In this document: one piece after another, positions 14,396-30,532 of the stretch
Numbering within the stretch: position 1 is the first letter of the stretch
Layout: each line of letters starts with the position of its first letter
Assembly: GCA_963575745.1 (NCBI GenBank)
Contig: CAUYUJ010015729.1
Coordinates: forward strand, 30,001-94,000
DNA: 64,000 nt
Reading direction: 5' to 3'
From: Prorocentrum cordatum
Taxonomy: Eukaryota; Sar; Dinophyceae; Prorocentrales; Prorocentraceae
The notes under the pieces: model-generated
What the model was told of the DNA's origin: nothing
Seen by the model: only the letters and a program-made list of their open reading frames with translations
The model's database searches: none
Made by a program: the position numbers and the translations under genes

Positions 14396-14553
14396 TAGTC
14401 TCGGCTCGAGAGTGCCCTGCACTCATAGCGTAGCCGCGACGCGAAGCGCCCCGCTCTGGAGTCCCGACTCCAGGCCTCGCGAGACCGGAACCGCGCCAGC
14501 AGCGCGGTACTGATTTGCGTCACCTCTTCCCTCCCACCAGAGCGCCCGCCGCA

Positions 14554-17121
14554 ATGGCCCCCGCCAAGCCGGAGCGCCGTCGCTCTTCCAAGCAGCCGCC
14601 GAGCTCACGTCCTGCAGCTGAAGGATCCCTCCTCCAACGCAAACAGGACTGCATTGCAGCCTTCAAGCAAGCGGGGTCTGACCGCCCCACAGCCGCATAC
14701 AACGGGCTCGCCGAGCTGAACGCGGACGAGCTGCAGGCCACGTACGACATGCACAAGACCAACACCAAGAAGCTCGGCAGTGCCTTGATTCGCATGTGTG
14801 CCGCCAACCAAATCAGCTACACGCTGGATCACCACCAGCGCAGCAAGCCTAAGCGCAATGGTGGTGACACAACCTATCCACCAGCTGCGTCCGCACGTCT
14901 TCAGGCTGCGGACGCCAAATTTATTGCCTTGGACCCGGCCTTCTGGAAGGTCCCAGTCCTGGCCGAACCCACATCACTCGACGACGGCAAGACGTACAAG
15001 CCCAGCATCAGCCTCCACGACTACGAGAGTGGCGAGCGGCTGCTGCAGCACCATCTCGAGCAGGGTAAGCGTACCACGGGTCAGCTCGCGATCGCTGTCA
15101 TGGGCCCAAAAAACGACAACTACGTCGGCACCGAGCTCGCCGTCCCCGTGCTGAAGCGCCACCCCAAGGCGCCCAATGTGGTTCACACGCACGTCCCCGT
15201 GACCGTGTACCAGCTGGGCACCAAGGAAGTCGCCTGCACGGAAAAAGTAGCCGTCGCCACCATTGATCCTGCCGACCACGTATGCTGGATTCGGGTGACC
15301 ATACATGAAACCGAAGCCATCGCCGCAGTCCCCTCCATGCATCAGGCCTTCGAGGATCAGTTTTCGGGAGGCGCCCCCGTGAACGGTGGTCCACGCGCCA
15401 AGGGTCCTTTCCGAGGGGATTCCGCTCCACAGGACAAGGCGCGCCAAAACCAAAAGCACAGGGAGTCTAAGAAAGACGCTCGCCGCCAGGAGCTCGACAG
15501 TCAGCTGCAGGACACCTTCAAGGCCCTTTTCCACGGCAACTTTAAAGCCGTCACTATCCTCGAACCCTGCAAAAGTCTAGGCAGGTACGGATCTGGCGTC
15601 GGAAAAAGGTCCCTGGCTGCCACTTTCGGCGTCAGTCTTCAAGCAGTTGACAAGGTCTTGGCGGGTTCGGGGCAACTCGGCGCCACCTACGACCTCAGCA
15701 ACGTAGGTGCGGACGAGCCCACGGCAGACAAGTACCAGACCGTGTGGTTCCCCGAGGACCAGCCCATCACGATGGCAGAGGCGTTCCAGAAGTCGGTGGA
15801 CTTCAAAGCCCTAGGAGTCGTCAGGCACGGCAAGTCAGGCTTATTGGGGATCCGTGTTGCACGTGGGTCAGACGCCGCCAAGGCCGCTGCCGTCAGCATC
15901 CGTGGCTGCGAAGCCACTCTCGCCAAGACGCGATACCGCATCACGGGCATTGCGGCACGCCATGCCACGCTGACTCAGCTTGCCAAGACTCTCACGGGCC
16001 CGTCCGTCAAATGGGACTGTGAGGTCTACCACACCGCCTGGGACCCAGCCACTTCGGCGCAGTTTGCCTTAGTGCGCGCTCATCGTCCCCCACCCACATA
16101 TACGGTACAGGTCGCAGGGTGCCCCATCCCGTGGAGCATCACCGAGGCCCCGTTGGCTGAGGTCGTGCCGAAGAGGGACAACGTTACCATTGTCACCCCT
16201 ACCACTATCACAGAGCCTGTGACGCCGCCCGCCCGTGGTGGCGGCTTCAGCCCCGCCACGGGCACACTCCTAACCAAAGCGGCCCAGAGCCCCTACCTCC
16301 ACGACCTCATGACTGCCACGCCCAAAGGCAAGGGCGTCGCACCGCTCCCGATCCCTAAGGAGGAGCCCTTAGCCAAGCGCCACCGATCCTCCAGCGGGAA
16401 ACGCGACGCCACGCCGCACGCAAGATCACACGGCGCTCCAGGCCGCAGCTCCTCTGCACCCCCGCACGGCACGGATGGAGCTGCCGAGCAGACGGCCGTC
16501 CAAGGACCAGGTGGGGACGGGCATGACCCGCAACCTGGCACGGGGGCGGCCGAAGGTGGAGGCCACACGGAAGGGCACGTTGACGCAGCCGCCGAGGTAC
16601 CAGGCGACGTCGAGATCCTCTCATCAGAGGATGAATTCAGCGTGGCATCGCGCGAACCGAACACCCTCGGCGAACGCTTCGCTACGGCCCCTAAACTGTC
16701 AGATGCCGCTACGACCCGCATCCAACACATGGAACAACAGCACGAGCTGCTTGCCAACACGGTGGACAACATGCAGGTCCAGCTTGCGGGCGTTCTCTCA
16801 TCCCAGGCCACACTCACGGAGCACGTTACAGGCTTGGAACGAGGGCTTGCCACCGTCGTCACTCAGCAACAGACGGCAACTACCGAAGCTGCTGCACTGC
16901 GCGGCGACATCCAGGCCCTCCTCGGGCACCTCACAGGAGGTACCATCCACCTGCCCCAGGTGGCCACCCTCGATACCAAAAAGGAGGAAGCTGCACCAGT
17001 TGCCGATCCCGTGGCTGTCTGCGGGTGGATCGACCAGCCAGGCCAGGTCACCCCAGGGACGGGGCCCCCAGGGGCTGACAAAGGCAAAGACAAAGGGCGG
17101 GCCACACAGGAACCCTATTGA
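14554..17121 (+). CDS. Retroelement ORF1, coiled-coil putative RNA-binding protein
   Basis: 855 codons from the ATG at 14554, chosen because GCCGCAATGG is a better start context than the in-frame ATG at 14515. The N-terminus is Lys/Arg/Ser-rich (PAKPERRRSSKQPPSSRP). The middle, about residues 40-560, is globular with no domain I can name. Residues ~580-720 are Pro/Ser/Gly-rich. Residues ~735-800 look like a coiled coil (IQHMEQQHELLANTVDNMQV and following heptads), and the C-terminus is charged. A basic start plus a coiled coil fits LINE ORF1 chaperones, but no RRM or CCHC knuckle is seen. Two conserved hairpins lie inside it. It ends at TGA 17119-17121, and the next ORF is in the same frame 261 bases on. 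Confidence 0.7.
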   Translation: MAPAKPERRRSSKQPPSSRPAAEGSLLQRKQDCIAAFKQAGSDRPTAAYNGLAELNADELQATYDMHKTNTKKLGSALIRMCAANQISYTLDHHQRSKPKRNGGDTTYPPAASARLQAADAKFIALDPAFWKVPVLAEPTSLDDGKTYKPSISLHDYESGERLLQHHLEQGKRTTGQLAIAVMGPKNDNYVGTELAVPVLKRHPKAPNVVHTHVPVTVYQLGTKEVACTEKVAVATIDPADHVCWIRVTIHETEAIAAVPSMHQAFEDQFSGGAPVNGGPRAKGPFRGDSAPQDKARQNQKHRESKKDARRQELDSQLQDTFKALFHGNFKAVTILEPCKSLGRYGSGVGKRSLAATFGVSLQAVDKVLAGSGQLGATYDLSNVGADEPTADKYQTVWFPEDQPITMAEAFQKSVDFKALGVVRHGKSGLLGIRVARGSDAAKAAAVSIRGCEATLAKTRYRITGIAARHATLTQLAKTLTGPSVKWDCEVYHTAWDPATSAQFALVRAHRPPPTYTVQVAGCPIPWSITEAPLAEVVPKRDNVTIVTPTTITEPVTPPARGGGFSPATGTLLTKAAQSPYLHDLMTATPKGKGVAPLPIPKEEPLAKRHRSSSGKRDATPHARSHGAPGRSSSAPPHGTDGAAEQTAVQGPGGDGHDPQPGTGAAEGGGHTEGHVDAAAEVPGDVEILSSEDEFSVASREPNTLGERFATAPKLSDAATTRIQHMEQQHELLANTVDNMQVQLAGVLSSQATLTEHVTGLERGLATVVTQQQTATTEAAALRGDIQALLGHLTGGTIHLPQVATLDTKKEEAAPVADPVAVCGWIDQPGQVTPGTGPPGADKGKDKGRATQEPY
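14887..14915 (+). other. TTCA hairpin 1
   Basis: Perfect 9-bp stem GCGTCCGCA/TGCGGACGC, unpaired C, apical GTC/GGC with a G:U pair, loop TTCA. Read as ASARLQAADA in ORF1. Confidence 0.85.
16231..16263 (+). other. TTCA hairpin 2
   Basis: 11-bp stem GCCCGTGGTGG/CCGCCACGGGC with one U:G pair, bulged C, apical GGC/GCC, loop TTCA. Read as GGGFSP in ORF1. Confidence 0.9.
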
Positions 17122-17382
17122 AGGTGCCTCAGAGGGCCCGCCTCAGCCCTCCGAGGAAGCGCCTTCAGAGGCATCCCTTCTCACTTCTCGCCGTACCTCC
17201 TCCTTGCTATATCATGTCATTTTTGGCAGCAGCACGAGCAAGCTACCTGGTGTAGGGACACCTGTCATCTTGCTGTGGGTGTGTTTGTTGCAATGTACAT
17301 GAGCATGCAGGGGTACCTAAAGATGCGTGCTGACATGCAGCTTTTGGCTCATCGCTCGCGCCGCCTGCCAGGCCTCGCCATC
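17122..17382 (+). promoter_or_regulatory. ORF1-ORF2 spacer with hairpin and possible splice acceptor
   Basis: Right after the ORF1 stop, 17120-17166 can fold into a long hairpin: GAAGG, CCTC and GAGGGC pair with GCCCTC, GAGG and CCTTC. It is followed by pyrimidine-rich DNA (about 17167-17215) and then TTTTTGGCAG, giving an AG at 17228-17229. This resembles a 3' splice or trans-splice acceptor upstream of ORF2. The assignment is inference. Confidence 0.4.
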
Positions 17383-20193
17383 ATGTGGCGCTTTGCTTTC
17401 AGCCTGGCCCTCCCCTCGCTCGCTGGAGCACACCCGTCTTCAGGCGGTGCGCCCCAGCATGGAGGTGGGTTTCTTCTGCAGCACGTCGAACGTGCGTCCC
17501 TTTTCTACCTCTACGATGACAGCATCTACAAGTACGACCACTACACCATCTTGGATCCGATCGTCAACGGCACCGCTGCCGCGAGTCCGTGCAGTATTGG
17601 CCAGGCACACAGTGGCGGCTTCAGCCCCGCTGCTGTGCCCCGCTATTGCCCTACGGGTCCCACCACTCCCATGCGAGATAGGGGCGAACCCGAGGAAGAC
17701 CCTGCTTTCTGGCACCTGATGATGATCCGCGCCCGGCTCATACCGTGTGCTGCGGCGTGGGCACCAGGTGAGGATAACCAGGACATGTTCTGGGCATGGC
17801 TTGAGGACTGCGTCCCGTACATCCTGGCGACGCTCCATCTGCCACAGTACGATCACCTCTTCCTTGAGGCGTCCGAGGACACCACCGACGCCCTGCGTCA
17901 TCGCACCGCGGTCGACATGTGCGAGGACATCTGGCACAGAGCGGGCCCCGACAGGCAGCGCATCAACCGCAACCTCACTCGGATCCAGAGCAGCCGCGAG
18001 TACGCCACCCGCTATTTCGGCCTCCTTCTGGAGTACCAGGGCGCTCGTGCCACGCTCGTTGGCCCTGAGGCTTTCATGGCACCTTTGCCGCCATACCTCT
18101 CACGGGCCCATGCTCTGCTACCAAGAGGTCTCCCTCCACCCGACCATGACGCCATGGCGTACCTCGCTGATGTTATCCTGCACCAACCGCCAGACATGCT
18201 GCCGCTCGTCGAGGCGGAGCTCGCGGCGGCGCCGACGGACGGCACCGATCAGGCCGCAGAAGATCCCGTATCATGGCTGCTCCAGCACATCGCGGCCAGT
18301 GATATCGGCAATACTTCCATGGACTCGTTCCACGCGTCGGAGGATAGCCAGGACGACATCGATATCCAGGATCGAGACGGCACGATACCATCAGGCGACT
18401 CGGCTCAGCGTGACCGCGACAGTGAGCCTCACTCTGGGCTCGCCCCGTGGCAACGTAGTGCGCCCCACACCTCAGATCAGGCCGACCCTTCTGCGCGGCC
18501 TAACGACGATGAAGGCGTCACTGCCGCTGATGTGACTAGCCATTCCACTGCTTCGCCAGCTCATGCCAGGCCGTGCAGTGGCGGCTTCAGCCCCGCTGCA
18601 CCACTGGCTAGACCTGGACATCCCCAGACCGCAGGAGGTGACAACGTGACTGACTCCAACCCTAGTGCCATCGACCACTGGCAGGCCGACATCGACAACG
18701 ACCCCATCGATGATGAACACTCAGATGCCAGCGGTCCCCACGAGCCCCAGCACAGCTCAGCGGCATCACGACATTGTGGCTGCCTCATCTGCCTCCTGGT
18801 GGCCACGTACGCCATCGCGATAGCAATGCCGTACAAGGACCAGATCGATGGATACTTGCCGACCCCGAGCCGAGACCCCAGCTACCGACAACGACGACGA
18901 CGCCAAGCGACCGCACCAGGCCCATCGGTGTCCACTATATTCCGACGCAAAACGACATACTATGTCACGTCCACATTGAGGGCCACTCTCAAATGGACCA
19001 GCGACAAACTCAGAGATGGTGTCTCGGGCGGAGCCACTGCAGTCGGGAGCGGCTTCGGGGGCGTCCTTAAATGGGCCAGCGGCAAGCTAGGGGCCATAGC
19101 CACGGGTGGAGTTGTGTGTGGTCTTCTACTCGTCGGTGCCAAACTCCTTGCCCAGGGAGCTGTCGGACACGTAGGCGCCCGCATATGTGCGCGGGCCCTG
19201 GACTCATCCACTGCCCACTGGTGCCTCCGCTGCTGCCAACCGAGCAGGAAGCCGAAGGACGAGGCCACACACAAAATGCCGTGCACGCTCGCCGACGAAC
19301 ACGACGACCAGCAGGTGCACGCACTCCGACATCCGCTGCTACAGGAACACTACGCCGCAGCTGTTGCCGCCGCAGTCGCCGACGTCACCACCGCCACTAC
19401 CGCCGCCATCGCGGAAGTCACAGCCGCCGTATCGCGAGCCTCGTCGGTCACACCAAGATCGACCAGCCCGACGCCACGAGACGGCTCCAAGAACGGCACG
19501 ACATTCGGCAACCTACCAACCAACGAGGATGCCACAGCACACGGTAGCGACACCGAGCCAAGGGAAACGAGAGAACGCACCCATGGCAGCCCGTGGTCCA
19601 TCTTCCGACATGCTGACGCTCGTGGTTCCTCCCCCGACGCGGACACCCAACCACCACGACGGCGAGCACGCTATGCATCACCTGACAGGCCCCAGGCGCC
19701 TTCAGGCCCTGGTACGCCTTACACTGCCCTCAAGCCACCGACACGCAACCCACGCAACACCATCCAGCGTGACCCAGCGGTCCCCGAGCCGCCGAAGAGC
19801 ATACTTAACGCCCTGTACCAAAACGGCTTCGCGCTAGGGAACAGTGGCGTGTCCACTGAGGACATCAAAGACGCTCTACGACTCCACGACCACCCTCGAT
19901 TCACTCACGACCCAACACTCCAAGTGCTGGGGCCGTGGACGGACATCATGCAGAGGCCACCGAACCGCCTCACTTGGGTGCTGGAAGACTCGGGCGGCAA
20001 CTCGGGCGAGACAATTTTCCCATACCTCACGTGGGACCTCCGTCAACCCACCACCGACGCGCCCACTGTTTCTGGCATGGGACCCGCGGCGACCTTGCGG
20101 CCCGTCTTGCTGCCTGTGGAGGGCACCTCTTGCCAGGCCCCCGCCGTGAAACGAAGGGTCGAACTGGCACCAACGTTGGCCGCACGTACGTGA
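17383..20193 (+). CDS. Retroelement ORF2, N-terminal part: secretory/membrane-like protein, function unknown
   Basis: The frame is open from an ATG at 17275, but the ATG at 17383 opens on a signal-peptide-like sequence (MWRFAFSLALPSLAGAHP, possible cleavage after LAGA), so I prefer it. From that start, residues ~20-330 are a mixed globular region. A Ser/Asp-rich linker follows. A hydrophobic segment (CLICLLVATYAIAIAM, ~18780-18827) precedes a second one (GGVVCGLLLVGAKLLAQGAV, ~19105-19164). An Ala-rich stretch lies at ~19360-19440. This could be a membrane or envelope-like protein, but no fusion peptide or known family is seen. The frame ends at TGA 20191-20193, and coding character continues in the -1 frame, so the two halves were probably one product. 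Confidence 0.5.
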   Translation: MWRFAFSLALPSLAGAHPSSGGAPQHGGGFLLQHVERASLFYLYDDSIYKYDHYTILDPIVNGTAAASPCSIGQAHSGGFSPAAVPRYCPTGPTTPMRDRGEPEEDPAFWHLMMIRARLIPCAAAWAPGEDNQDMFWAWLEDCVPYILATLHLPQYDHLFLEASEDTTDALRHRTAVDMCEDIWHRAGPDRQRINRNLTRIQSSREYATRYFGLLLEYQGARATLVGPEAFMAPLPPYLSRAHALLPRGLPPPDHDAMAYLADVILHQPPDMLPLVEAELAAAPTDGTDQAAEDPVSWLLQHIAASDIGNTSMDSFHASEDSQDDIDIQDRDGTIPSGDSAQRDRDSEPHSGLAPWQRSAPHTSDQADPSARPNDDEGVTAADVTSHSTASPAHARPCSGGFSPAAPLARPGHPQTAGGDNVTDSNPSAIDHWQADIDNDPIDDEHSDASGPHEPQHSSAASRHCGCLICLLVATYAIAIAMPYKDQIDGYLPTPSRDPSYRQRRRRQATAPGPSVSTIFRRKTTYYVTSTLRATLKWTSDKLRDGVSGGATAVGSGFGGVLKWASGKLGAIATGGVVCGLLLVGAKLLAQGAVGHVGARICARALDSSTAHWCLRCCQPSRKPKDEATHKMPCTLADEHDDQQVHALRHPLLQEHYAAAVAAAVADVTTATTAAIAEVTAAVSRASSVTPRSTSPTPRDGSKNGTTFGNLPTNEDATAHGSDTEPRETRERTHGSPWSIFRHADARGSSPDADTQPPRRRARYASPDRPQAPSGPGTPYTALKPPTRNPRNTIQRDPAVPEPPKSILNALYQNGFALGNSGVSTEDIKDALRLHDHPRFTHDPTLQVLGPWTDIMQRPPNRLTWVLEDSGGNSGETIFPYLTWDLRQPTTDAPTVSGMGPAATLRPVLLPVEGTSCQAPAVKRRVELAPTLAART
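17422..17458 (+). other. TTCA hairpin 3
   Basis: 13-position stem (GCTGGAGCACACC with GGTGCGCCCCAGC) with two A:C mismatches, bulged C, apical GTC/GGC, loop TTCA. Read as HPSSGGAP. Confidence 0.75.
17604..17639 (+). other. TTCA hairpin 4
   Basis: Stem CAGTGG/CCGCTG plus GGCACA/TGTGCC with a one-base bulge, unpaired C, apical GGC/GCC, loop TTCA. Read as SGGFSPA. Confidence 0.9.
18573..18601 (+). other. TTCA hairpin 5
   Basis: 9-bp stem GTGCAGTGG/CCGCTGCAC with one U:G pair, bulged C, apical GGC/GCC, loop TTCA. Confidence 0.9.
19688..19718 (+). other. TTCA hairpin 6, apical pairs swapped
   Basis: Stem CCAGG/CCTGG, bulged C, apical GCC/GGC (G-C pairs reversed relative to most copies), loop TTCA, with an outer GGC/GCC. 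Read as APSGPG. Confidence 0.85.
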
Positions 20194-23100
20194 GCGTGCA
20201 CCCTTCGCTGGCCGCGTGGTACGCGATACCGCCCCACCCGCCCTACAGTCTCGAAGACGACACCCTCGCGTGGGGACCCATCGCACTCTGGATGTGCGAA
20301 GCCACCCAACCACCGCGCGGGGAAAACAGGCACAACTACGTGAAAGGGGAGGCTCACGGAGCGCGCCTCATTTACCCTCGGGTCCTGAGCCTCCTCATCC
20401 GCATGGACTGGTGTGCCCCCACAGAAGCTGCTTCCAGGTGCCGTGCCCTCCCACACGCCTATGGCATGGGTGACTGCGCGCACGCCCTCCACATTGCTGG
20501 CTACGATCATCCAGATCTCCGTGAGGCGGCTGAAGCTCACGACCAGGAAGCTAGCACCAGGCGCAGATCAACCATCGCGGCAGCATGGCCACCACCGCAG
20601 GCGCTATACTCGCCAGAAGCGGCGCGAGCATGGGCCAAACAGCACTACGACACGGAAGCAGCCACCAGGGACGACCCTAATCAGCCTCGACCACGCGTCT
20701 CGCTCCACATACTCCAGCTGGACCCGAAACCACTCATCGACCTGGTGTACACGGGCTTGCAAGCTGTCCCCGTGCGGGGGCATCCTGACGCACACGGGTC
20801 GCGCCCCAGCGGCTCCAGCCCTGGGGCCGCGTCGGACCCACCACGCACGCACAAGGCAGGCACAGCCTTAGCCCGCAGTCCAGACCCCTCATCGACGTCA
20901 TCTGGAGTCGACGAACGCCGAACGCCATCCCTCATCAGCGCGGCCGCCGCCCTCGCCCGAGGCCGCGCCCGTGCGCGACGATCTGCCTCTCGCTCGTCAC
21001 GACAGAGCGACGGGAACTCCACCTCCGACAACAGCGGCATCGAGACGTGGGAGCACATTGTGACGGAGGAGGAGCCGACTGCCTACCACGTCCTCGCCTA
21101 CCACGTGCGTGATGTGCGGTCCCGTGTCAACGCCCCTGGCATCGAGGTCTGGCTCGACCCTGGTGATCACCACGATGGCGCCTACTTACCGTGGGGGACG
21201 ACAGTCATGGGCTACCGCGTCATTGACCCTACGGTGGACGGGCGTGACGGCTGGGTCATCCTCCATCATGATCACGGCGACACCACTACTAAGCTCTGGG
21301 CACCGACCCAAGTCCACGTTAAGGGGGACGACTCCTGGCGCACCGTCATGGTACCAGCGGATATGGGGCCCCAGTGGATCAGGTGCCATGCCGAGGACGC
21401 ACGCCTCCCCGCCGAGGTAGTCCGCACTACAGGCCAATCCTGGTTTGCTGACGTCTGGCCCTTGTGGGATCGCCCGAGACCCCACCCAGACGACCCAGGC
21501 ACAAACGAGCATGCGCTACCGCCCTTACCAGGACGCTGGTCTTGCCTACAGTGTCGATTCCAATGCTGCCAATATTGCGCGGCTCGCCGCAACACACAGC
21601 TTGGCACCTCGGGCCAACCAACGTGCCCAGACTGCGGCCGCAGCGGACTGCGTACACTTATGGACTGGTCCACGGACTACTCGTGCAACAGTTGGACGTG
21701 TGCATACAGCACCAATAAGAGGGACTCTGACACATGCTGCCTGTCCAGCAGGTGTCCCCACCCTCCCAGGCCACACAACCAGCTCGACGTCCGTGCCACA
21801 GGGATGCCGCCGCACATCCTTGCCCGCCAATTCGGCAACGCGCCAGCCCTCCACGACCTCAAGGAACCCCCCCGAGCGCCTTCAGGCCCCGGGGGAGAAC
21901 CTCCACAACCAGGGCAAGTAGGCTACCAGGGCCAATGGTACCTCCCACCACAGCCGCGGCGTGTCCCCAGGCAGGGATTGCCTGACGGCACAACGCGGCC
22001 ACCTGGATTCACAGGAACGGGGATGCCCGAAGAACCTTCCCCCGACCAACCGCTTTGGAGGGAAGGCTATGTGCTCTTCAGCCCCCATCAGGCCCTCAAG
22101 GAGGAACTCACCTTCAACAAGACGGTCCGCCGACCCTTCTCCCTAGCCATTACCAACATGTACAGGGATCGTGTCACGGTCAGGACCGTCTGCGAGTTGA
22201 TCGCCGAGCGCACCCACATGACCCGCACCCGCTGGCGAGATGTGGTACTGTACTGGGACGCCGAGGGTGGTCCTGGGCCTCAAGCTCTCGACTACGATAT
22301 GCGACTCTGTGACGCCATGGTGAGCCGTGCCACGACCGAAGCTGAGCTAAACCACGACCGCAGCAACCGTGGTAGTTTCTGCCTCTACGGACCAGCGCAC
22401 CAGCGGGCCATCAACATTACGGCGATCTCAGAGCCGCAGAACATCGACTACACGGAGTATGTGCGACGATACTCACCCGTAGGGGAGACCTACCCTGACC
22501 ACGCCTTCGAGCACGTCTATCGGGGCTGGCAGCGGCCCGACGTGCCCACCATCCTCCCCGACACCCGTCCCCTCTCGAGAGCCGACTGGCAGCGCCACCA
22601 ACAGCACCAGCAGCGCATCCAGCAGCGGGACCAACGTGATGCACGACAGCAGGGCACACCACGCTACCGCTCCCCTGCGCGAGTCCCGACAGGCGGTAAC
22701 ACGGCCTACGACGGGGTTGCCGCCTACCACCGTGGTCCCATAGGTGCCATGCCTGCGGCTGCTGGAGCAGCCGCCTCCAGCTACGGCCAAGCCCCCAACG
22801 CCAGGGTTCACCCAGCGGCCATCGGCTACTCGCGTGCACCCCTACATGCCCTAAGGGCCACCTCGCCAGTGCCAGGGTCCACGCGCGCCTGGGGCCTCTA
22901 CTCAGGCCGACATGAGGGCCCCTCCAGCAACCAGCCTGCAGTGATAACCCCTGCGGCTTCAGCCCAGGGGGCTGCAACATACCGTGGCAGGGCTGGGCGC
23001 CCCGAAGGATGGCGCGATGCGAACGTGCGCGCTTGGCAACCGCGCCAGCACACGCCCCCGCCAAATGTAGCTGCAGCACTGCGCCCTGCCCAGGCCAAAC

Positions 23101-25706
23101 CTGCCCCACCTGTGCGGGAGAGGCAGCCGCTCACCCCGCTCGTCCTCACGCGCATCCAGGCGCATCGCAGCGCCTCCCCGAGGCACAGCGAGGGAAGCGT
23201 CCACCACGTCAGCCCCCGCCCAGACGCGGCCGACCCCGACCAGGCCACAGCCACGGCGGAAGGCGGCACAAGCGCCTCTCGCCAGCCCAGCCCATCACCC
23301 TGCGCGGCGCCGATCCGATCCCCGAGCAGGGCGGATTCTGAGCGCGCTAATGCCCAGGCGACTTCGCCACGCGACCGTCACACGGGCGGGCGCGTCCCGC
23401 GCAGCAGGACCTGCAGCCGCCACAGTTCACGCAAGGCCCCAGGGAGCTCCACGAGCTCGCCGCCTCGCGAGACTCAGGCCGATGCCCGACCCCCCGAAGT
23501 GGTGCCACGCTTCGGAGCCAGCGTCATCGACCCTAGCCAGGTCGACCTCGAGCCGACGCCGTCCACGGACCACGAGCCGCAGCTGCCCACCCGCGTGATC
23601 GTCCCCATCGACGAGGCGCCAACCTTCGACCCGTTCAAGAACAAGTACCGTGTCAAGAACCTTGTGGCGGGTTTTGGCGGGGGCTCACCGCTCTCACCTC
23701 AGAGTCGGGGCGGTGCCCCCGCCACCTCGGCTGCTGCCGCGGCAGCTGCGGCCCCGCGGGGAATCAGCCCTGTCCGCAACGTGGGCCTCACGGCAGCGGG
23801 CATGGACGAGGCCCAGCGTCAGGCCTCCGATCGTGCTGCTGGAGCCGTTCCACCAGATGCTGCTCATCAAGACACTGACGGGGCGGGCGTGTCACCGCAG
23901 GAGGGACCAGCGGTGGCGCGTGCGCAGTACATGCGCGTGCGTTGTGCCGCCGCCGCGCCTGGCCGCCGCCGCTGTCTCGTTTTTGTCTTTGTGTTCGGCA
24001 GGATGGATCGAGGAGTCGCCTCCCTCTCCCACTGCTGCCGTCTCACTTCTCCTCCCCTCGTCCCCTACAGTACAGGAGTGAGGAGGAATTTTCGTGACAT
24101 TTTTACTAATATTTATGAACCCCCCCTGGCGCAGTGCCGACCGTGTCCCTCCTATATGGTTGGCCTGACGGCGGCTTCAGCCCCGATCAAGCTAGCCCAT
24201 AGTAACGCCATGAGCTCCTACTGTGGCCAAGCCTCCTACTGGGGCGAGGGTCAAGCTGACCTTCACCGTGCGGGGCGCGCAAACCCCAGTTCCACCGATG
24301 GAGACGGGCCAGGTCGCTCCATACACCTCGTCAGCCTTAACATCACCAGTCTCTCAGCGAACTGGCCAACCATCACCGCCCTTGGTGTCGACCACAACGC
24401 CGCTGTCATAGCACTGCAGGAGACCCGACATGCCAAGCCGACTAGGCAAGCCATCGCTACCAGCGCCGCCAATCCTCTCCACGGTGGATACCACGCCAGT
24501 CTTGGGCCTGACCTTGATCTGGCGCGAGCCCAGCGCAGAGCTGCCCACGGCGGCACTGATCACACCGTTGTGGGCAACACTGGCGCCTCGGGAGGGGTCG
24601 CCATTCTCTCTAAGGATGCCATCGTCGACTCCACTGTCGACGACAATGCGCCCTGTATCGCCGCCCTCAAGGCCAAGAAAAGATGGCATGAGGTCTTTCT
24701 CCCACTCTGCACTCAACACCGCCGTAGGCGGCGACGAAATAACCATGGGCCCGCGGGGATCTACATAGCGAGCCTTTACGGGATTGCTGGAGGAGACAGC
24801 ACAGCTCTCTTTCGGCTCGCTGACTGTGCCGCCGCTAGGGTCGGCTCAGCACCCTACTTCATCTGCATGGACGCCAACACGAACATTGACGACAATCCAC
24901 ACCTTCTGCACATGTTGCAGCACGGATGGTCCAACGTCGCTGAGGGCACACCAGACCACACCATGCACACCTATGGCAATATCCCTGATTGGGACCGCGT
25001 CACCAAGTGCCCCCGCACTTCGCGCATCGATTATATCATTGCCAACCAGGCGGCGCGATCCCTTGTCACCGACTTCTGCTACCTTCGCGACTTGCCTGCG
25101 AAGTCTCACGTTGGCCTGCAGGTCACGCTTGACCTCAGTCGCCTCGACCATACGGCCCGACGCCTTCTTGCCCCTACGCCCTACCCGCCCGACGATGGAG
25201 TTCATGAGGGGCACGAGCTGCAAGCACTTGGGACCCTCATCGCTGGGCGATACCAGGACCGCATGGAGCAGGCCGACGCACGAGACGACGTGGAGCGCAT
25301 GTTCACCCTGGCTAACGAGGCCAGTCATGAGTACCATCTCACCCGTCTACGCGATCTGCCACCTCCACCGCCCCACCAACCAAAAAAGAAGCCCCCCACC
25401 ATGCACGGGCTCACGCCTACGTTCGAGGATCGACCAGTTGTCCCCCGCGCGTTCCCCACCTACGGAGCTTCCACGATTCACATGAACCGACTGCGCAAGC
25501 TCCATCGGCAACTCTGCGAGCTCCGTTTCATCGGACAGCACCACCATCTTGATTGCCGTGCTATTCCCGCCGTACCTCGCGCAGCGCATCGACTGCACGT
25601 GGGCCGCGGCCCGCCTCTTATGCCACAAGCTGCGCCCCACGGTTCTCCTGGAATTCCCCGAGGCCTGGGCCCCAGACGAGCCAGTGCCGCACGGGGAGCA
25701 CCTTGA
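19935..25706 (+). CDS. Frame-3 open stretch: C-terminal half of ORF2, then endonuclease part of ORF3
   Basis: A 1,923-codon frame that I read as two genes in one phase. To about 23.95 kb it continues ORF2: coding character takes over near 20.1-20.2 kb (around the residues VHPSLAAWYAIPPHPPYS). A Ser/Arg-rich patch follows, then a Cys cluster at about 21.54-21.75 kb (WSCLQCRFQCCQYCA, then CPDCG and further Cys) that resembles a zinc ribbon of unknown kind, then a Gln/Pro/Ser-rich tail. At 23.95-24.15 kb the sequence turns pyrimidine- and AT-rich and the translation loses protein character. From about 24156 the APE-like endonuclease begins. The frame ends at 25704-25706, after the endonuclease-RT linker has moved to frame 1. 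Confidence 0.5.
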   Translation: MDGHHAEATEPPHLGAGRLGRQLGRDNFPIPHVGPPSTHHRRAHCFWHGTRGDLAARLAACGGHLLPGPRRETKGRTGTNVGRTYVSVHPSLAAWYAIPPHPPYSLEDDTLAWGPIALWMCEATQPPRGENRHNYVKGEAHGARLIYPRVLSLLIRMDWCAPTEAASRCRALPHAYGMGDCAHALHIAGYDHPDLREAAEAHDQEASTRRRSTIAAAWPPPQALYSPEAARAWAKQHYDTEAATRDDPNQPRPRVSLHILQLDPKPLIDLVYTGLQAVPVRGHPDAHGSRPSGSSPGAASDPPRTHKAGTALARSPDPSSTSSGVDERRTPSLISAAAALARGRARARRSASRSSRQSDGNSTSDNSGIETWEHIVTEEEPTAYHVLAYHVRDVRSRVNAPGIEVWLDPGDHHDGAYLPWGTTVMGYRVIDPTVDGRDGWVILHHDHGDTTTKLWAPTQVHVKGDDSWRTVMVPADMGPQWIRCHAEDARLPAEVVRTTGQSWFADVWPLWDRPRPHPDDPGTNEHALPPLPGRWSCLQCRFQCCQYCAARRNTQLGTSGQPTCPDCGRSGLRTLMDWSTDYSCNSWTCAYSTNKRDSDTCCLSSRCPHPPRPHNQLDVRATGMPPHILARQFGNAPALHDLKEPPRAPSGPGGEPPQPGQVGYQGQWYLPPQPRRVPRQGLPDGTTRPPGFTGTGMPEEPSPDQPLWREGYVLFSPHQALKEELTFNKTVRRPFSLAITNMYRDRVTVRTVCELIAERTHMTRTRWRDVVLYWDAEGGPGPQALDYDMRLCDAMVSRATTEAELNHDRSNRGSFCLYGPAHQRAINITAISEPQNIDYTEYVRRYSPVGETYPDHAFEHVYRGWQRPDVPTILPDTRPLSRADWQRHQQHQQRIQQRDQRDARQQGTPRYRSPARVPTGGNTAYDGVAAYHRGPIGAMPAAAGAAASSYGQAPNARVHPAAIGYSRAPLHALRATSPVPGSTRAWGLYSGRHEGPSSNQPAVITPAASAQGAATYRGRAGRPEGWRDANVRAWQPRQHTPPPNVAAALRPAQAKPAPPVRERQPLTPLVLTRIQAHRSASPRHSEGSVHHVSPRPDAADPDQATATAEGGTSASRQPSPSPCAAPIRSPSRADSERANAQATSPRDRHTGGRVPRSRTCSRHSSRKAPGSSTSSPPRETQADARPPEVVPRFGASVIDPSQVDLEPTPSTDHEPQLPTRVIVPIDEAPTFDPFKNKYRVKNLVAGFGGGSPLSPQSRGGAPATSAAAAAAAAPRGISPVRNVGLTAAGMDEAQRQASDRAAGAVPPDAAHQDTDGAGVSPQEGPAVARAQYMRVRCAAAAPGRRRCLVFVFVFGRMDRGVASLSHCCRLTSPPLVPYSTGVRRNFRDIFTNIYEPPLAQCRPCPSYMVGLTAASAPIKLAHSNAMSSYCGQASYWGEGQADLHRAGRANPSSTDGDGPGRSIHLVSLNITSLSANWPTITALGVDHNAAVIALQETRHAKPTRQAIATSAANPLHGGYHASLGPDLDLARAQRRAAHGGTDHTVVGNTGASGGVAILSKDAIVDSTVDDNAPCIAALKAKKRWHEVFLPLCTQHRRRRRRNNHGPAGIYIASLYGIAGGDSTALFRLADCAAARVGSAPYFICMDANTNIDDNPHLLHMLQHGWSNVAEGTPDHTMHTYGNIPDWDRVTKCPRTSRIDYIIANQAARSLVTDFCYLRDLPAKSHVGLQVTLDLSRLDHTARRLLAPTPYPPDDGVHEGHELQALGTLIAGRYQDRMEQADARDDVERMFTLANEASHEYHLTRLRDLPPPPPHQPKKKPPTMHGLTPTFEDRPVVPRAFPTYGASTIHMNRLRKLHRQLCELRFIGQHHHLDCRAIPAVPRAAHRLHVGRGPPLMPQAAPHGSPGIPRGLGPRRASAARGAP
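20796..20839 (+). other. TCCA hairpin 7
   Basis: Stem CCCCAG/CTGGGG extended by CGCG/CGCG across a bulge, bulged C, apical GGC/GCC, loop TCCA, with an outer GGGTC/GACCC. Read as PSGSSPGA. Confidence 0.85.
21867..21896 (+). other. TTCA hairpin 8, apical pairs swapped
   Basis: Stem CCCCCGAG/CCCGGGGG with one A:C mismatch, bulged C, apical GCC/GGC, loop TTCA. Confidence 0.8.
22938..22976 (+). other. TTCA hairpin 9
   Basis: Stem CCCCTG/CAGGGG, bulged C, apical GGC/GCC, loop TTCA, with outer TGCAG/CTGCA across an internal loop. Read as PAASAQGA. Confidence 0.85.
23676..23723 (+). other. Long GC hairpin of a different type
   Basis: GGCGGGGGC pairs with GCCCCCGCC, and ACCGC pairs with GCGGT across a two-base bulge. 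The loop is about 18 nt, unlike the TTCA hairpins. Confidence 0.7.
23950..24155 (+). promoter_or_regulatory. ORF2-ORF3 spacer with splice-acceptor-like polypyrimidine-AG
   Basis: A pyrimidine-rich run (about 24022-24067, including CTCACTTCTCCTCCCCTCG) ends in CCCCTACAG, giving an AG at 24069-24070. AT-rich DNA follows, then the ATG at 24156. This has the layout of a dinoflagellate trans-splice acceptor and suggests ORF3 is expressed from its own capped mRNA. No experimental support exists here. Confidence 0.45.
24156..25500 (+). CDS. Retroelement ORF3, APE-like endonuclease domain
   Basis: The EEP (exonuclease-endonuclease-phosphatase) fold is recognised from its ordered motifs: SLNITSL (Asn), ALQETRH (Glu), GGVAILSKDA, YIASLYGIAGG, ICMDANTNIDD (Asp/Asn), RIDYIIAN (Asp) and KSHVGLQVTL (His). 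In LINEs this domain nicks the target DNA to prime reverse transcription. The usual SDH triad at the C-terminal end reads KSH, so the Asp that orients the catalytic His is missing. Starts at 24156 or 24210 are both possible. The domain is followed by a basic RLRKLHRQLCELR linker that leads into RT, now in the next frame. It lies inside the 19935-25706 open frame. Confidence 0.8.
24162..24198 (+). other. TTCA hairpin 10, at the start of ORF3
   Basis: Stem CGG/CCG plus TGA/TCA across a one-base bulge, bulged C, apical GGC/GCC, loop TTCA. The outer stem is weaker than in the other copies. It lies six bases after the ATG at 24156. Confidence 0.7.
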
Positions 25707-28700
25707 CGTTTTGATCCAACATCTCGACTTAGAGCTGGCGCGACGCGCGAACCGTGCCAAGGCGGAACGCATCAGGATATGGGCCGAGGGCGTCCGTGAG
25801 CCAAGCGGGCGAAAGGCGGCCATATACGCACGAGCTGCTGATAGCTCGCCCACGGCGTATCTCCGCACGCCTACCACTCCTGACGATACGCAACTCCACT
25901 GCGACACCAACGCCTTCAAACCTGACGAAGCTTGCACGGACGACAGCGACGCTGACACCGAAGCTGGCGGCTTCAGCCCCGGCGACGGTAGTTCGCCCGA
26001 CACGGACAGCGACGAAGACCACACCCGTGAACCACCACCTGCGCAAGTCCCCGACATCCTCCCTGCCAACGCCATTGTTGCTAACATCAAGGACATGCTG
26101 AAGCTCATGGTCGACACCTGGGAGCCCATCTTGGGCAGGTACCGCGCACGTGCGGGACATGATGCCGAAGCCATGCCGACGTGGGCCGACTTCTACGACG
26201 AGTACCGACAGGAGCTGCCTACGCCATCACCAGCTACCCCTTTCCACCTCACCGACGACCAACTCATCCACTTCATTCGCACCCGTTCACCGAGACGCGC
26301 GGGGGGTCTGGACGGTTGGACTACTAAGGAGGCAAAGGAGCTTCCCGACGACATTCTTCGCCTCTTCGCCAGCGTTCTACGAGCTATGCAACGCACTGGC
26401 ACCATCCCAGAACCCCTCCTCCACGTCCCAAACCCGTGCCTCCGAAAAGGCCGAGGCGAACTCCCAACGGACCAACGACTTCTCTCGGTGCTTTCCGTTT
26501 GGATGTACGCGTGGGAAGCACCAGCTTACCGCAGCCTCACGGAATGGCGGAAAGGATGGACCCACGCCACGAGTTTTGGCGCTGTCCCCAAAGCTACCAT
26601 TGGGGACGTCAGCACTTCTCTCGCCCTTCGCATCGAACACGCCAGAGCCCTTCTCCTTCCCTTGGCTGGAGCTGCCCTGGACCGTCAGAAGTGTTTCGAC
26701 TATCTCATCACGGACATATGCCTTAACCTCGCGCTTCACGCGGGGTGTCCCCAAGACATCGTTACTGTCCGCAGAAACTTCTACAGGCGCCACAAACGTT
26801 ACATCCGCATGAACGGTGCGTACTCTAAGGAACTGGCCAGGACAAACGGTCACCTCCAGGGAAGCTCTTGGTCCCTGGACGACATTAAGCTGCTCATGTG
26901 CGTCTGGACCAAGAGACAGCATCGTTACGTGCCGCGGTCACTCAGCACTACTTTTGTTGACGACAGCAACTCCACTACCCACACCGCGCCCGAGTTGCAG
27001 AAATCTCTTGATGAAACCGCCAAGTTTGATCGATTTTCTGGTCAACGCATTCATCCTGGAAAAGTGGCGGGGTGGGCGCTTACTGACGAGCTTCACACCG
27101 CCGTTACCCAGCTCACCTTGGCGGAACGGCCCTTACGCGTGGTCGACTCCTTCAAGCTCGTCGGAAGTTACATCAACGCCGAGGCAGCGCCGGCTCCAGC
27201 CGCGCTCAACCTCACGGCCACCGCTGACGCCCGTGTTCGCAGGGCGACTAGTCGCCTGCCGCGTATTGGCAAGCTCCCATCTCCGATGCGTATTAAGGCG
27301 CGGCACGCCCGCTCCCTTGCTGCCAGCGTCTGTACCACGGGCACTGACATCCAAGCCCCATCAGGCCCCGTCAAAACTGCCTACAACCATGCCCTTAAGG
27401 CGGCTATCCGCCCCAAGGGAAACAGGTGGGTCGAGTTTTGGACTCTCATGGCCGTGTGCGTCCCAGGGCACGCCCTGGAGATTGACGCCATTATGCAGCG
27501 TGAAGTCTTCCTGTGCCTGCGGCGACAGGTCAACCGCGACGCCACTCTTTGCGGCCTCGTCAGGGATCTCCAACACCATGTCCAGACCCTTTTTGGCGGA
27601 GGACCTGTTGGACGACTTGTTCAGACGCTTCAGCAGCTCCGTTGGACTTGGCCCACATTTGGCACCATGTACGACGACTGGGGCTGTCAGATCAGTTGGC
27701 TGAACCTTCCCCAAAACGCCTTCCTTCACATGCTGCGCGCCTCGCAACGCAGAGCCTTTCTCAGAAAAATCAAGCCACGGCGTCATGACCTTGGTCACCT
27801 TGCTTCGGTCAGACAGGGCCTCGACCTTTTCGCCAGCACGTGGCTCGCCCGCACCAAAGGAGCTGCCAAATGCAACGCATGGCAGCTGGCGCTCCTCTTA
27901 AACTACCTGTCGGGCGGGGACCACACCCAACAGCGACGTTCTCGATCAAATACGTCCGCTGATCCCAGCCCTATTTGCCGTTACTGTGATGAGGAAGAGG
28001 AAACTCAGGAGCACACTGTGCGTGACTGCAAGTGCTGGGCCCGTGAAAGAGTCCCTCTCACCACCCTCATCAGTGACGAGCAGTGGGCCCGTCTTCCTCC
28101 GCACACAAGACATTGCGGGCTCTTCGATGAGGACCCAGCCCTCCTCGATCTGCAAGCCGACCTCGCGAGGGACCCGCTACCTCAACCCATACCGCGGCCC
28201 CCGCCTGAGGGAGATCCTGCGGCTTCAGCCCAGGACTCCTACACCACTTACCTCGACCACGACACTGGTTGGACATGGGTCTACGCTGCCACGGACGGTG
28301 CATGCACCAACCAAGCCATCCCTTTGCTTGCAAGAGCGGGCTACGGCGTCTACTACGGCATCGACCACCGCATGAACTACAGTGCGCGCGTTCACGGCAT
28401 CACGCAGAACGCACAGCTTGCGGAGACCCTCGCCATTGTCCACCTCACGGCATGTGCTGAACGGCCCGTACACGTCTTCGTGGACAACCAGGCGGTGGTC
28501 GACGGCTTCCAAAGGATCATCGACGGACACTCACCTCCGCAGGGCACGCACGTGGAGTTCTGGGAAAAGGTCCACCGATGTGTCATGGCCAAGCCAAACA
28601 TGTTCCGCGTAGAGAAAGTCGCTAGCCACCAGGGCGACACGGGCATCGACCTCGGGCTCATCGGGCCCATCGCGGAGGAGTTCAATCGTCAGGCTGACGC

Positions 28701-29613
28701 CCTCGCCACAGCGGCGGCACGTACTCATAACCTCCCAGACGACATCGTTGAAGCTGCCAAAGCACGACACCGCCAAGCGACCGTGCTCCATGGAGTCGCC
28801 GTTGCCATCTACGAGCGGAGACATCGTACTCTTCCTCTCCCACACCGCAGGGCTGGGTTCACTGCTGCAGAACTAAACAAAATGGAACCAAATCCCCTGC
28901 TGTCTGACCAGGCTCCACCCGCGGCTGGACCAGACATCCCACAAAACCCCGACGAGCTCTGGGCCGAGGCCCAACGGGGGTTATTCGACGAACAGGAGGA
29001 CGACCCGTTCGGCTTTGGTGGAGGTTTGGACTTCCTGGGCGACGAGTCAGCCAGCGCCAACCCTGCCCCGGCGGGCACCCGCACGGCGCCCCCGACTCCG
29101 CCATTGAGTGCGTCAGCCCACCCACATGACAACGCCGTTCCTTTTCAAGACGCTGATGAGCAGGACGATGACCTTTTCAGCCTCGGTGGGGGATCGGACG
29201 CTTTGGACGACGGACCAGCCAACGAAAACCCCGCCCCGTCGGGAAACCTCGCAAACCCTACTGCGACGCCGTCCCCAAGAGCGTTAACGCCCACATACGA
29301 TGATATCGGTCACCGCCAGGACGCCGACCACGACCCGAGTGCCCCCCGAGGATTGGGTGGCATTGAGGACGCACCGCCGACACCACACGCTGCCGACCAT
29401 GCCGCCCCACCGAGTCACCAACCCTCTACGCGACCGACCTCAGCGGCCTTGCACGGCATCACGACTGGCCCCACCGTGCATACCACTTCACCTCCCATCG
29501 TCAGCGACCCGCGGGGGCGGCTTCAGCCCCCCCGCAGGGTACTAAACCAGACAGGCCCTCGTGCCCCACCCACGCTTCCTCCGTTGCTGAGCGAGAGGAA
29601 GCGGCTCCCCTGA
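25549..29613 (+). CDS. Retroelement ORF3, reverse transcriptase plus RNase H
   Basis: 1,354 codons in frame 1, overlapping the endonuclease frame by 158 bases. RT motifs in order: the GGLDGWT loop with the DILRLFASVL helix (~26.31-26.39 kb), motif A ALDRQKCFDYL (~26.68), motif B GHLQGSSWSL (~26.85), motif C FVDD (26953-26964), and FKLVGSYI as motif D/E (~27.16). A Cys/His finger ICRYCD...EHTVRDC lies at ~27.97-28.03 kb. RNase H follows: ATDGAC, QLAETLA, VFVDNQAVV, ASHQGDTG and FNRQADALA give a complete D-E-D-D set (~28.28-28.72 kb). The C-terminal ~290 residues are acidic and Pro-rich. All catalytic residues seen are intact. The initiator at 25549 is unlikely to be a real start; synthesis probably reaches it from the endonuclease by a +1 shift, or the copy is broken. 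Confidence 0.85.
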   Translation: MIAVLFPPYLAQRIDCTWAAARLLCHKLRPTVLLEFPEAWAPDEPVPHGEHLDVLIQHLDLELARRANRAKAERIRIWAEGVREPSGRKAAIYARAADSSPTAYLRTPTTPDDTQLHCDTNAFKPDEACTDDSDADTEAGGFSPGDGSSPDTDSDEDHTREPPPAQVPDILPANAIVANIKDMLKLMVDTWEPILGRYRARAGHDAEAMPTWADFYDEYRQELPTPSPATPFHLTDDQLIHFIRTRSPRRAGGLDGWTTKEAKELPDDILRLFASVLRAMQRTGTIPEPLLHVPNPCLRKGRGELPTDQRLLSVLSVWMYAWEAPAYRSLTEWRKGWTHATSFGAVPKATIGDVSTSLALRIEHARALLLPLAGAALDRQKCFDYLITDICLNLALHAGCPQDIVTVRRNFYRRHKRYIRMNGAYSKELARTNGHLQGSSWSLDDIKLLMCVWTKRQHRYVPRSLSTTFVDDSNSTTHTAPELQKSLDETAKFDRFSGQRIHPGKVAGWALTDELHTAVTQLTLAERPLRVVDSFKLVGSYINAEAAPAPAALNLTATADARVRRATSRLPRIGKLPSPMRIKARHARSLAASVCTTGTDIQAPSGPVKTAYNHALKAAIRPKGNRWVEFWTLMAVCVPGHALEIDAIMQREVFLCLRRQVNRDATLCGLVRDLQHHVQTLFGGGPVGRLVQTLQQLRWTWPTFGTMYDDWGCQISWLNLPQNAFLHMLRASQRRAFLRKIKPRRHDLGHLASVRQGLDLFASTWLARTKGAAKCNAWQLALLLNYLSGGDHTQQRRSRSNTSADPSPICRYCDEEEETQEHTVRDCKCWARERVPLTTLISDEQWARLPPHTRHCGLFDEDPALLDLQADLARDPLPQPIPRPPPEGDPAASAQDSYTTYLDHDTGWTWVYAATDGACTNQAIPLLARAGYGVYYGIDHRMNYSARVHGITQNAQLAETLAIVHLTACAERPVHVFVDNQAVVDGFQRIIDGHSPPQGTHVEFWEKVHRCVMAKPNMFRVEKVASHQGDTGIDLGLIGPIAEEFNRQADALATAAARTHNLPDDIVEAAKARHRQATVLHGVAVAIYERRHRTLPLPHRRAGFTAAELNKMEPNPLLSDQAPPAAGPDIPQNPDELWAEAQRGLFDEQEDDPFGFGGGLDFLGDESASANPAPAGTRTAPPTPPLSASAHPHDNAVPFQDADEQDDDLFSLGGGSDALDDGPANENPAPSGNLANPTATPSPRALTPTYDDIGHRQDADHDPSAPRGLGGIEDAPPTPHAADHAAPPSHQPSTRPTSAALHGITTGPTVHTTSPPIVSDPRGRLQPPRRVLNQTGPRAPPTLPPLLSERKRLP
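25957..25989 (+). other. TTCA hairpin 11
   Basis: Stem GCTGG/CCGGC, bulged C, apical GGC/GCC, loop TTCA, with outer ACCG/CGGT across a small internal loop. Read as AGGFSPGD. Confidence 0.8.
27181..27213 (+). other. TCCA hairpin 12
   Basis: Stem AGCGC/GCGCT, bulged C, apical GGC/GCC, loop TCCA, with outer GAGG/CCTC. Read as APAPAALN within the RT. Confidence 0.8.
28210..28239 (+). other. TTCA hairpin 13
   Basis: Stem TCCTG/CAGGA plus GGAG/CTCC across a one-A bulge, bulged C, apical GGC/GCC, loop TTCA. Read as PAASAQDS, just before RNase H. Confidence 0.85.
29507..29540 (+). other. TTCA hairpin 14
   Basis: Stem GCGGGGG/CCCCCGC, bulged C, apical GGC/GCC, loop TTCA, with outer ACCC/GGGT across a one-base bulge. 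Read as RLQPPR. Confidence 0.9.
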
Positions 29614-30038
29614 CCTCTCGGGGCGCGGCCCTAGCGGCTCCAGCCCTGGGGTCGCGCCGGCCCCTCCAGTCACCTTTTAAGGGTGACGGACGTCAGCGTT
29701 CAGGGTCCCGCACGCCGCTAGCCCACCTGGACAGGCGTACCGAGGACCTCGCCTCTGTCTCGAGATCCTCGGCGGATGTCACTGAGCAGCCACCTCTCAC
29801 CGACCGTGAAACCGAGCTGTCACAGGCTATGGCTGCCCTTCAGCAGAAGTGCTTAGCTCTCGCCGCGGACCTCGCCGCTGCCCAAGCTCGTCAAGGTCCT
29901 CTACTCCAGCGCCTCCACAGCGCTGGGCGAGCCTTCGCCGAGCTGCTCACCACCTCGCCCGATGGTGTCGTGCCGTCACTCAACATCCAAGCTATGTTGT
30001 CATCGTTCCGCGGCGCTCCACCTGGTGCCCCGCGCTGA
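29610..30038 (+). CDS. Retroelement ORF3 C-terminal tail in frame 3
   Basis: After the frame-1 stop (29611-29613) frame 3 stays open to TGA 30036-30038. It ends in protein-like sequence with a predicted amphipathic helix (QCLALAADLAAAQ-like, at ~29.82-29.90 kb) and NIQAMLSSFRGAPP. It is probably the original end of the polyprotein separated by a shift near 29.5-29.6 kb, or a small separate ORF; ATG at 29829. Confidence 0.4.
   Translation: MTSRGAALAAPALGSRRPLQSPFKGDGRQRSGSRTPLAHLDRRTEDLASVSRSSADVTEQPPLTDRETELSQAMAALQQKCLALAADLAAAQARQGPLLQRLHSAGRAFAELLTTSPDGVVPSLNIQAMLSSFRGAPPGAPR
29622..29658 (+). other. TCCA hairpin 15
   Basis: 13-bp stem GGCGCGGCCCTAG/CTGGGGTCGCGCC with two G:U pairs, bulged C, apical GGC/GCC, loop TCCA. 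It lies just after the frame-1 stop. Confidence 0.9.

Positions 30039-30400: not shown

Positions 30401-30532
<132 letters not shown>

Follow-up and report, generated by a model that had tools for sequence, protein, structure and literature searches.

A single 16-kb element within the window, the 64-kb stretch of DNA that was analyzed, contains 15 RNA hairpins of common design. The host is a eukaryote, probably the dinoflagellate Prorocentrum cordatum. These hairpins are under nucleotide-level selection. They covary, hold their positions in the copies, are evenly spaced, and recur in a second unit (the partner unit). On balance we consider it probable, if only just, that they are dispersed RNA recognition or packaging signals of a kind resembling those of MS2, here carried by a cellular LINE and by its partner, with a protein of the element as putative reader. 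The features of the element are collected in Table 1.

On the basis of its predicted endonuclease and RNase H the element is a non-LTR retrotransposon, with a weak reverse transcriptase (RT) match. Its ends are common to the partner unit and to neighboring copies. Searching the 24213–25544 piece of ORF3 returned PF03372 (E = 5e-7, 30.1 bits, cut-off 24.5), as for an apurinic-type endonuclease, and this domain was absent from the matches listed when the entire ORF3 was scanned as one. In ORF4, PF00075 was found with E = 6.3e-7 and 30.1 bits (cut-off 25.8), and RNase H is a feature of some LINE clades. The PF00078 match in the same frame has E = 0.035 and 14.2 bits, below the cut-off of 29.6, and an FVDD motif was seen by eye; a distant homolog, P0005, reaches 29.2 bits, slightly under the same cut-off. 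The long C-terminal helix of ORF1 is probably a coiled coil. The predicted structure of ORF1 is poor (mean pLDDT 42), and a fold search with this poor model gave nothing at E ≤ 0.001 and recognized no capsid fold. No relatives of the proteins were found in IMG/VR or in GTDB genomes. When IMG/VR was scanned for the hairpin pattern there were 115 stretches, with one match apiece in the 80 listed, and among 1.01 Mb of loci examined no locus had a second hairpin.

Table 1. The element, its open reading frames (ORFs) and its hairpins, in window coordinates. For hairpins the outer stem, apical stem and loop are given.
Feature	Position	Strand	Description
Whole element	14396..30404	+	16-kb non-LTR retrotransposon (from its domains); TAGTCTCGGCTCGAGAGT to ...CCTACTTGTCCGA, (TC)n on both flanks
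ORF1	14515..17121	+	868 aa; homologs at 40-98% identity
ORF2	17275..20193	+	972 aa; strongly hydrophobic segments at residues 498-521 and 602-631
ORF3	19935..25706	+	open frame of 1923 aa; endonuclease domain PF03372 toward end; Cys-rich stretch (by eye)
ORF4	25549..29613	+	1354 aa; RNase H PF00075; RT-like region (PF00078 weak, FVDD by eye)
3' tail	30043..30404	+	87-88% match to partner unit tail
Hairpin 1	14887..14915	+	9 bp; GTC/GGC; UUCA
Hairpin 2	16231..16263	+	11 bp; GGC/GCC; UUCA
Hairpin 3	17428..17452	+	7 bp incl. one mismatch; GTC/GGC; UUCA
Hairpin 4	17610..17632	+	6 bp; GGC/GCC; UUCA
Hairpin 5	18573..18601	+	9 bp; GGC/GCC; UUCA
Hairpin 6	19692..19712	+	5 bp; GCC/GGC; UUCA
Hairpin 7	20803..20827	+	7 bp; GGC/GCC; UCCA
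Hairpin 8	21869..21895	+	8 bp incl. one mismatch; GCC/GGC; UUCA
Hairpin 9	22948..22970	+	6 bp; GGC/GCC; UUCA
Hairpin 10 (weakest)	24166..24188	+	3 bp + bulge; GGC/GCC; UUCA
Hairpin 11	25963..25983	+	5 bp; GGC/GCC; UUCA
Hairpin 12	27186..27206	+	5 bp; GGC/GCC; UCCA
Hairpin 13	28213..28237	+	7 bp incl. one mismatch; GGC/GCC; UUCA
Hairpin 14	29511..29535	+	7 bp; GGC/GCC; UUCA
Hairpin 15	29622..29658	+	13 bp; GGC/GCC; UCCA

All 15 hairpins of the original prediction are present, with starts within about six bases of those it gave. The common core is 11 bases comprising the bulged C, the G-N-C apical stem and the UYCA loop. Scanning both strands of the 64 kb for this core, with C required at the bulge and the outer stem unconstrained, returned 15 sites. 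All lie on the sense strand within the one element, and form four to six of the six outer pairs. Strict hairpins, defined by at least five uninterrupted outer pairs, number 12 on the + strand of the window and none on the − strand, with none beyond 14887–29658. Tolerating one outer mismatch gives 14 hairpins with a bulged C in the element, and the fifteenth, site 24162, has its loop at 24176. Each of the 12 strict hairpins has G-N-C/G-N'-C as its apical stem, and the bulge base is C in 15/15 window hairpins; a separate scan was also made with every bulge base allowed. The outer stems are mostly unrelated in sequence. The 16-kb element was shuffled 200 times with its dinucleotide composition preserved, the chance check that had been called for; strict hairpins averaged 0.03 per shuffle and never exceeded 1, against 12 in the real sequence. 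Chance or GC composition as the origin of the hairpins is ruled out by the shuffles together with the core-only control.

A covariance model trained on the 15 window hairpins plus six from the partner unit was used to scan the window. The 15 hairpins, being training data, scored 27.5–36.4 bits, and the next best in the window scored 14.1. Rfam gave no matches at gathering in the window, and none up to E = 1 in 14800–29800. The window was also scanned for hairpins with many different arrangements of bulge and loop, and among those listed no further family recurred, apart from tandem and simple repeats. On folding in a 160-nt context the middle apical pair forms with a probability of at least 0.96 in 14 of the 15 hairpins, and 0.63 at 24176; the first outer pair is uncertain (0.35–0.56) at 17439, 21881 and 27195. 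The spacing of the hairpins is near 1.1 kb and is more even than random, with none of 100,000 random placements equally regular. From inspection of the translations by eye, many hairpins lie within low-complexity linkers, and the even spacing could partly reflect protein linkers. The spacing, the partner unit and the (TC)n-flanked ends all lie beyond what had been noted originally.

The hairpins are found at the same places in the element copies examined, with a few losses. Third-codon positions differ among the copies at 13.9% (6182/44432) outside the hairpins, but at 1.5% (7/478) in the stems and 0.6% (3/490) in the cores. Comparing the paralogous hairpins, the covariation score is 0.770, against 0.166 ± 0.038 for shuffles and at most 0.213 for slid controls. 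The phase of the loop relative to the codons varies between sites, as originally noted. A protein motif is ruled out by the constrained silent sites and the differing phases. The claim of a structural signal kept for its pairing holds, given the silent-site constraint and the covariation among hairpins. Within the family copies, pairing is more often broken than kept where a stem pair has changed (34 of 57, six of the broken pairs being gaps in one copy), and there is one compensatory event. Hairpin 2 has a compensatory change of C-G to G-C in the C93 and C123 copies. In the C93 copy the loop of hairpin 6 is UCCA, and hairpin 10 has a fuller stem, GACGG/CCGTC. No pairs of occupied and empty sites were present among the copies examined; the sole gap seen is in L161, where a deletion takes in part of hairpin 6. 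Four homologous proteins (P0007–P0010) have hairpin-compatible peptides at 7/7 orthologous sites, with residue changes consistent with a kept hairpin, and P0006 has a compatible site near that of hairpin 5. In P0011 and P0012, which are the most distant of the ORF1 homologs, 0/4 sites are compatible, and the hairpin is absent from L168, a divergent and decayed ORF1 relative (~48% in its best stretches).

The partner unit is ~6.9 kb in length, lies between two element copies and has long frames of its own; one instance was seen. It looks non-autonomous. By blastn it matches the element only in the 55-nt 5' end, the ~370-nt 3' tail and two blocks of 32–35 nt. Both blocks correspond to hairpin 14, the stem of which is present twice, identical. 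These two blastn-detectable hairpins may be a copied stretch. The unit has six hairpins in total, with a bulged A in two of the six. A first genome search for the shared 3' tail gave 1765 candidate elements. A strict, repeated recognition motif on the sense strand is visible in the sequence of both an autonomous element and its partner.

We suggest that the hairpins would act as repeated cis-acting recognition sites in the genomic RNA of the element. A single RNA-binding protein would read the bulged C, the G-N-C stem and the UYCA loop, and the outer stem would merely hold the motif and be free to vary. The reader would most likely be the ORF1 product (Gag-like or ORF1p-type, with its probable coiled coil), or alternatively the Cys-rich part of ORF3. 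Protein bound about once per 1.1 kb would coat the 16-kb RNA evenly and might favor its entry into the RNP, where reverse transcription would proceed at (TC)n target sites. The non-autonomous-looking partner could hitch-hike through ends that are similar and hairpins that are of one kind with those of the element. We infer a preference for (TC)n targets, a protein of the element as the reader and RNP assembly or packaging as the role.

The hairpins might instead be sites for a host RNA-binding protein by which the element has its RNA exported, stabilized, translated or shielded from silencing, with no packaging. The RNA of the element is very long and GC-rich. The same silent-site, covariation and core-search evidence serves such a role as well as the main reading, in which the reader protein is likewise putative. 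Yet the core is absent elsewhere in the 64-kb window, and the isolated core matches inspected in the genome, taken from 30 places cut out of 15,054, lack such a hairpin in 8/8 cases, with 0–4 outer pairs each. This argues against a general signal of host mRNA. Moreover, the partner unit retains the hairpins jointly with the element ends, as expected of a retrotransposition signal. We therefore regard the host-factor explanation as unlikely, while deserving serious attention.

Somewhat more doubtful is a bolder form of the packaging model, a virus-like assembly code within a cellular LINE. The element's own Gag-like protein would read the strict hairpins at near-regular steps of 1.1 kb, and the RNAs of element and partner would be packed into a defined particle. 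The membrane-spanning-like segments of the ORF2 protein could make this particle membrane-associated. If true, the element would be a retrotransposon that packages its RNA in a virus-like step and has a satellite dependent on it.

Two further explanations are improbable, to about the same degree. The hairpins could be slow spots in translation or aids to frameshifting at the domain boundaries of long polyproteins. Open frames contain 14 of the 15 here, and the remaining one is inside an open frame in the L148 copy; moreover ORFs 2 and 3, and ORFs 3 and 4, overlap in different frames, and the linker positions mentioned above would also fit. Against this, the partner hairpin at L147:7702-7724 is outside all listed frames of at least 150 aa on its strand, the loop phase differs by site, and a shared loop and bulge are unnecessary for pausing or frameshifting. 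The other is a signal in DNA, an extruded hairpin for recombination or integration, since evidence from sequence does not by itself distinguish RNA from sense-strand DNA. The apical GTC/GGC stems at 14900 and 17439 form standard pairs on the sense strand only, but over the extended stems there are nine G-U against seven A-C, counts too close to decide the strand, so this argument is weak.

Among the signal types proposed originally a binding site or packaging mark fits best, and an insertion scar or a parasitic micro-hairpin inserting into GC-rich DNA is very improbable: there are many copies of a small motif with a common center, and the hairpin 14 stem occurs twice in the partner unit, but the outer stems are mostly unrelated, the copies examined share the same positions with a few losses, the silent sites are constrained, and the core is found nowhere else in the 64 kb, nor a hairpin at any of the eight isolated genomic matches inspected.

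The way in which the proteins of non-LTR retrotransposons choose the RNA that encodes them is still open, and the 3' tail or cis preference is usually invoked. With dispersed signals, short synthetic hairpins could be used to test how the RNA is selected. In LINE/SINE partnerships the 3' tail is common to both, and here too the non-autonomous-looking unit has the tail of the autonomous element. The partner unit differs in its internal hairpins, its length and its own long frames. The iron-responsive element also has a bulged C on the 5' side, with a 5-bp upper stem and a CAGUGN loop, whereas our hairpins have 3 bp and UYCA, and lack an Rfam match as described above. Such hairpins in a LINE were not found by title or abstract start in open-licence PMC papers, among the matches listed. 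Dispersed packaging signals are known in STNV and parechovirus as well as in the viruses discussed below, and the apical stem of the MS2 operator is 2 bp in length. The introner elements of dinoflagellates are introns whose ends carry inverted repeats, present in transcripts (PMC7789003; PMC10666404; both in part). The kind of host and the inverted repeats in transcripts are similar, but the hairpins of the element are short, lie inside ORFs and have a common loop motif.

The closest parallel is with ssRNA viruses. In MS2, picornaviruses and the HBV pregenome, stem-loops are dispersed in the genome RNA around a common recognition motif, and the spacing between sites influences assembly; for MS2 the rule is an xxYA loop with an A in the 5' bulge (PMC6281560, in part). 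The element likewise has several stem-loops with a common loop motif and variable stems. As in the MS2 operator, a 5' bulge lies under the short apical stem and the tetraloop ends in Y-A (UYCA compared with xxYA). Their apical stem is 3 bp, the bulged base is C throughout the window with A in just the two partner-unit hairpins, and we claim no homology. The viruses have known capsids, whereas the present element is a non-LTR retrotransposon with no known capsid. In our judgement its motif is stricter and more evenly spaced than viral packaging signals. If the preferred reading is true, the idea of dispersed packaging signals extends from viruses to a cellular retroelement.

The hairpins studied here have a variable outer stem and an 11-base core, comprising a C bulged on the 5' side, a 3-bp G-N-C apical stem and a UYCA loop. 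A search of the window for the core, made without selection on the outer stem and with apical pairing still demanded, returned 15 sites, all in the sense orientation and all within a non-LTR retrotransposon (the element). At these sites 6, 6, 5, 6, 6, 5, 6, 5, 6, 4, 5, 5, 5, 6 and 6 of six possible outer pairs are formed. Strict hairpins, having at least five uninterrupted outer pairs, number 12 on the forward strand and none on the reverse, compared with a mean of 0.03 and a maximum of 1 in 200 shuffles. The recurrent architecture of the original prediction is thus well beyond chance. A covariance model scores the 15 hairpins, which are its training data, at 27.5-36.4 bits, against 14.1 bits for the next best match in the window. 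A second retroelement in the window has none of the hairpins, and is a built-in negative control.

In the element, Pfam matches PF03372, an endonuclease (E 5e-7), and PF00075, RNase H (E 6e-7); the reverse transcriptase match is weak (E 0.035) and falls short of the cut-off. For the 3' tail there are 1765 candidates in the genome assembly searched (4.13 Gb, 21,875 contigs), and the 40 scored are 99-100% identical. In an array on C2, element copies and a different unit are arranged head to tail with (CT)n in between, which suggests insertion into (TC)n. ORF1 is 98% identical over 56% of its length to the NCBI protein P0009 (GY811_12640), filed under a Myxococcales MAG; the contig is probably misassigned or misbinned. 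The features are collected in the table.

Coordinates of the features, in the window unless otherwise stated (G000, own-genome assembly)
Feature	Position	Strand	Remarks
Element	14396-30404	+	bounded by two (TC)n tracts; long frames 868, 972, 1923 and 1354 aa
ORF2 of element	17275-20193		LINE protein with two strongly hydrophobic membrane-spanning-like segments (residues 498-521, 602-631), which are conserved in homolog P0006
Perfect 78-bp duplication	30566-30725		directly past the element's 3' (TC)n tract
Second retroelement	38255-39079 (and 35187-38261)		clear RVT_1 (PF00078, E 3.4e-9)
Tandem repeat	42380-43165		31 bp x 25 copies
Array	44600-48200		units ~740 bp apart; visible as recurring hairpin positions
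Partner unit	G000:C2 about 406700-413640 (L147/L148)		~6.9 kb, between two element copies; own long frames

The partner unit, seen once, is putatively non-autonomous. Its frames are repetitive and rich in Ala, Thr and Pro. In blastn its only matches to the window element are 55 nt at the 5' end (82%), ~370 nt at the 3' end (87%) and a pair of short blocks, both of which are hairpin 14. It contains six hairpins, four with a bulged C and two with a bulged A, at a density of 0.86 per kb compared with 0.94 in the element.

Covariation between the paralogous hairpins is strong. The set comprised 21 rows (17 distinct), of which 15 came from the core-only search of the window and six, found via pairing, from the partner unit. 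Paired cells make up 94.8%, against 62.2% in shuffles. The proposal that pairing is conserved on outer stems unrelated in sequence is upheld by a covariation score of 0.770 (0.166 in shuffles, none of 500 equalling it; at most 0.213 for slid versions). Double changes occur in 7 of 9 pairs, a number that is not unusual, 114 of 500 shuffles being as high.

With one mismatch permitted, hairpins were found in 18 of 20 own-genome stretches. Of the other two, L153 has one close to its end in the covariance-model scan and L165 has none. Three stretches also have one weaker opposite-strand match each, with a different apical stem. The 15 sites gave 8-13 alignments each, or 8-10 after leaving out cross-matches between hairpins 7 and 15. 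Differences from the window, in copies that are related and so give counts that are not independent, affect 70 of 3486 hairpin positions and 9 of 1496 core positions, compared with 1958 of 25419 in the flanks. At third codon positions they number 3/490 in cores and 7/478 in stems, against 6182/44432 elsewhere; at first positions stems (25/525) resemble the rest (1637/44431). Among 57 changed stem pairs 23 keep pairing and 34 lose it, six of the latter being gaps in one copy. There is one compensatory event, in hairpin 2, found in two copies.

We used reverse translation to ask where homologous proteins could encode a hairpin whose outer stem has 6 bp. There are four compatible sites in P0007, four in P0008, one in P0009, two in P0010 and one in P0006, with none in P0011, P0012 or P0005. 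Orthologous sites are compatible in 7/7 cases for P0007-P0010 (2+2+1+2), where P0007 and P0009, being close relatives, carry little weight, and in 0/4 for P0011 and P0012, the most distant ORF1 homologs. In P0008 a loop-coding F is replaced by S, as expected for UUCA to UCCA. The P0006 site reads RLQ, in a different phase from the GFS of the window, and BLAST places it near hairpin 5, ~10-13 residues further on; it may therefore be taken as suggestive only. The feature is not universal across the wider family. Separately, 10 places in the own genome resemble ORF1 but have a different codon within the ILEPCK motif, compared with none in a reversed control. By eye two resemble the element's family and the rest other families; one, L168, is decayed and interrupted by a purine-rich repeat.

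The core CGGCTTCAGCC occurs 15,054 times genome-wide, compared with 7,418 for its reversed control. Of 30 places extracted, the 22 clustered ones belong to loci that carry such hairpins. This does not hold for the eight isolated ones, control matches with 1, 2, 0, 0, 2, 4, 0 and 2 outer pairs. Among 136 core matches in IMG/VR, a further control, 24 have five or six outer pairs; 115 of the 136 were preselected by a pattern fixing two outer pairs, and the remaining 21 have 0-4. In 41 loci, all picked for having the core (21 own-genome stretches and 20 of the 115 IMG/VR loci), the covariance model found 163 matches with E no higher than 0.5. One match falls in each of these 20 viral-database loci, and six of the 20 lie within the score range of the window (up to 34.9 bits). 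Hence a single hairpin proves nothing, and the proof is the cluster.

With two close pairs merged post hoc, the hairpins form 13 stations with gaps of 1029-1796 bases (CV 0.167), an evenness matched by none of 100,000 uniform placements and none of 20,000 placements merged likewise. Unmerged, the CV of all 15 is 0.40. Inter-domain linkers may contribute to the even spacing. The hairpins of the partner unit are less evenly spaced.

A strict bulge and loop on variable stems, repeated along the RNA and in the partner unit, looks like a protein site. The hairpins would then be recognition sites for a protein, with a candidate role in packaging-signal-mediated assembly, which is the nearest known principle. 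In MS2 the motif is described (PMC6281560) as an xxYA loop with an A in the 5' bulge. The likeness of the element hairpins to it would be functional, and homology is not claimed.
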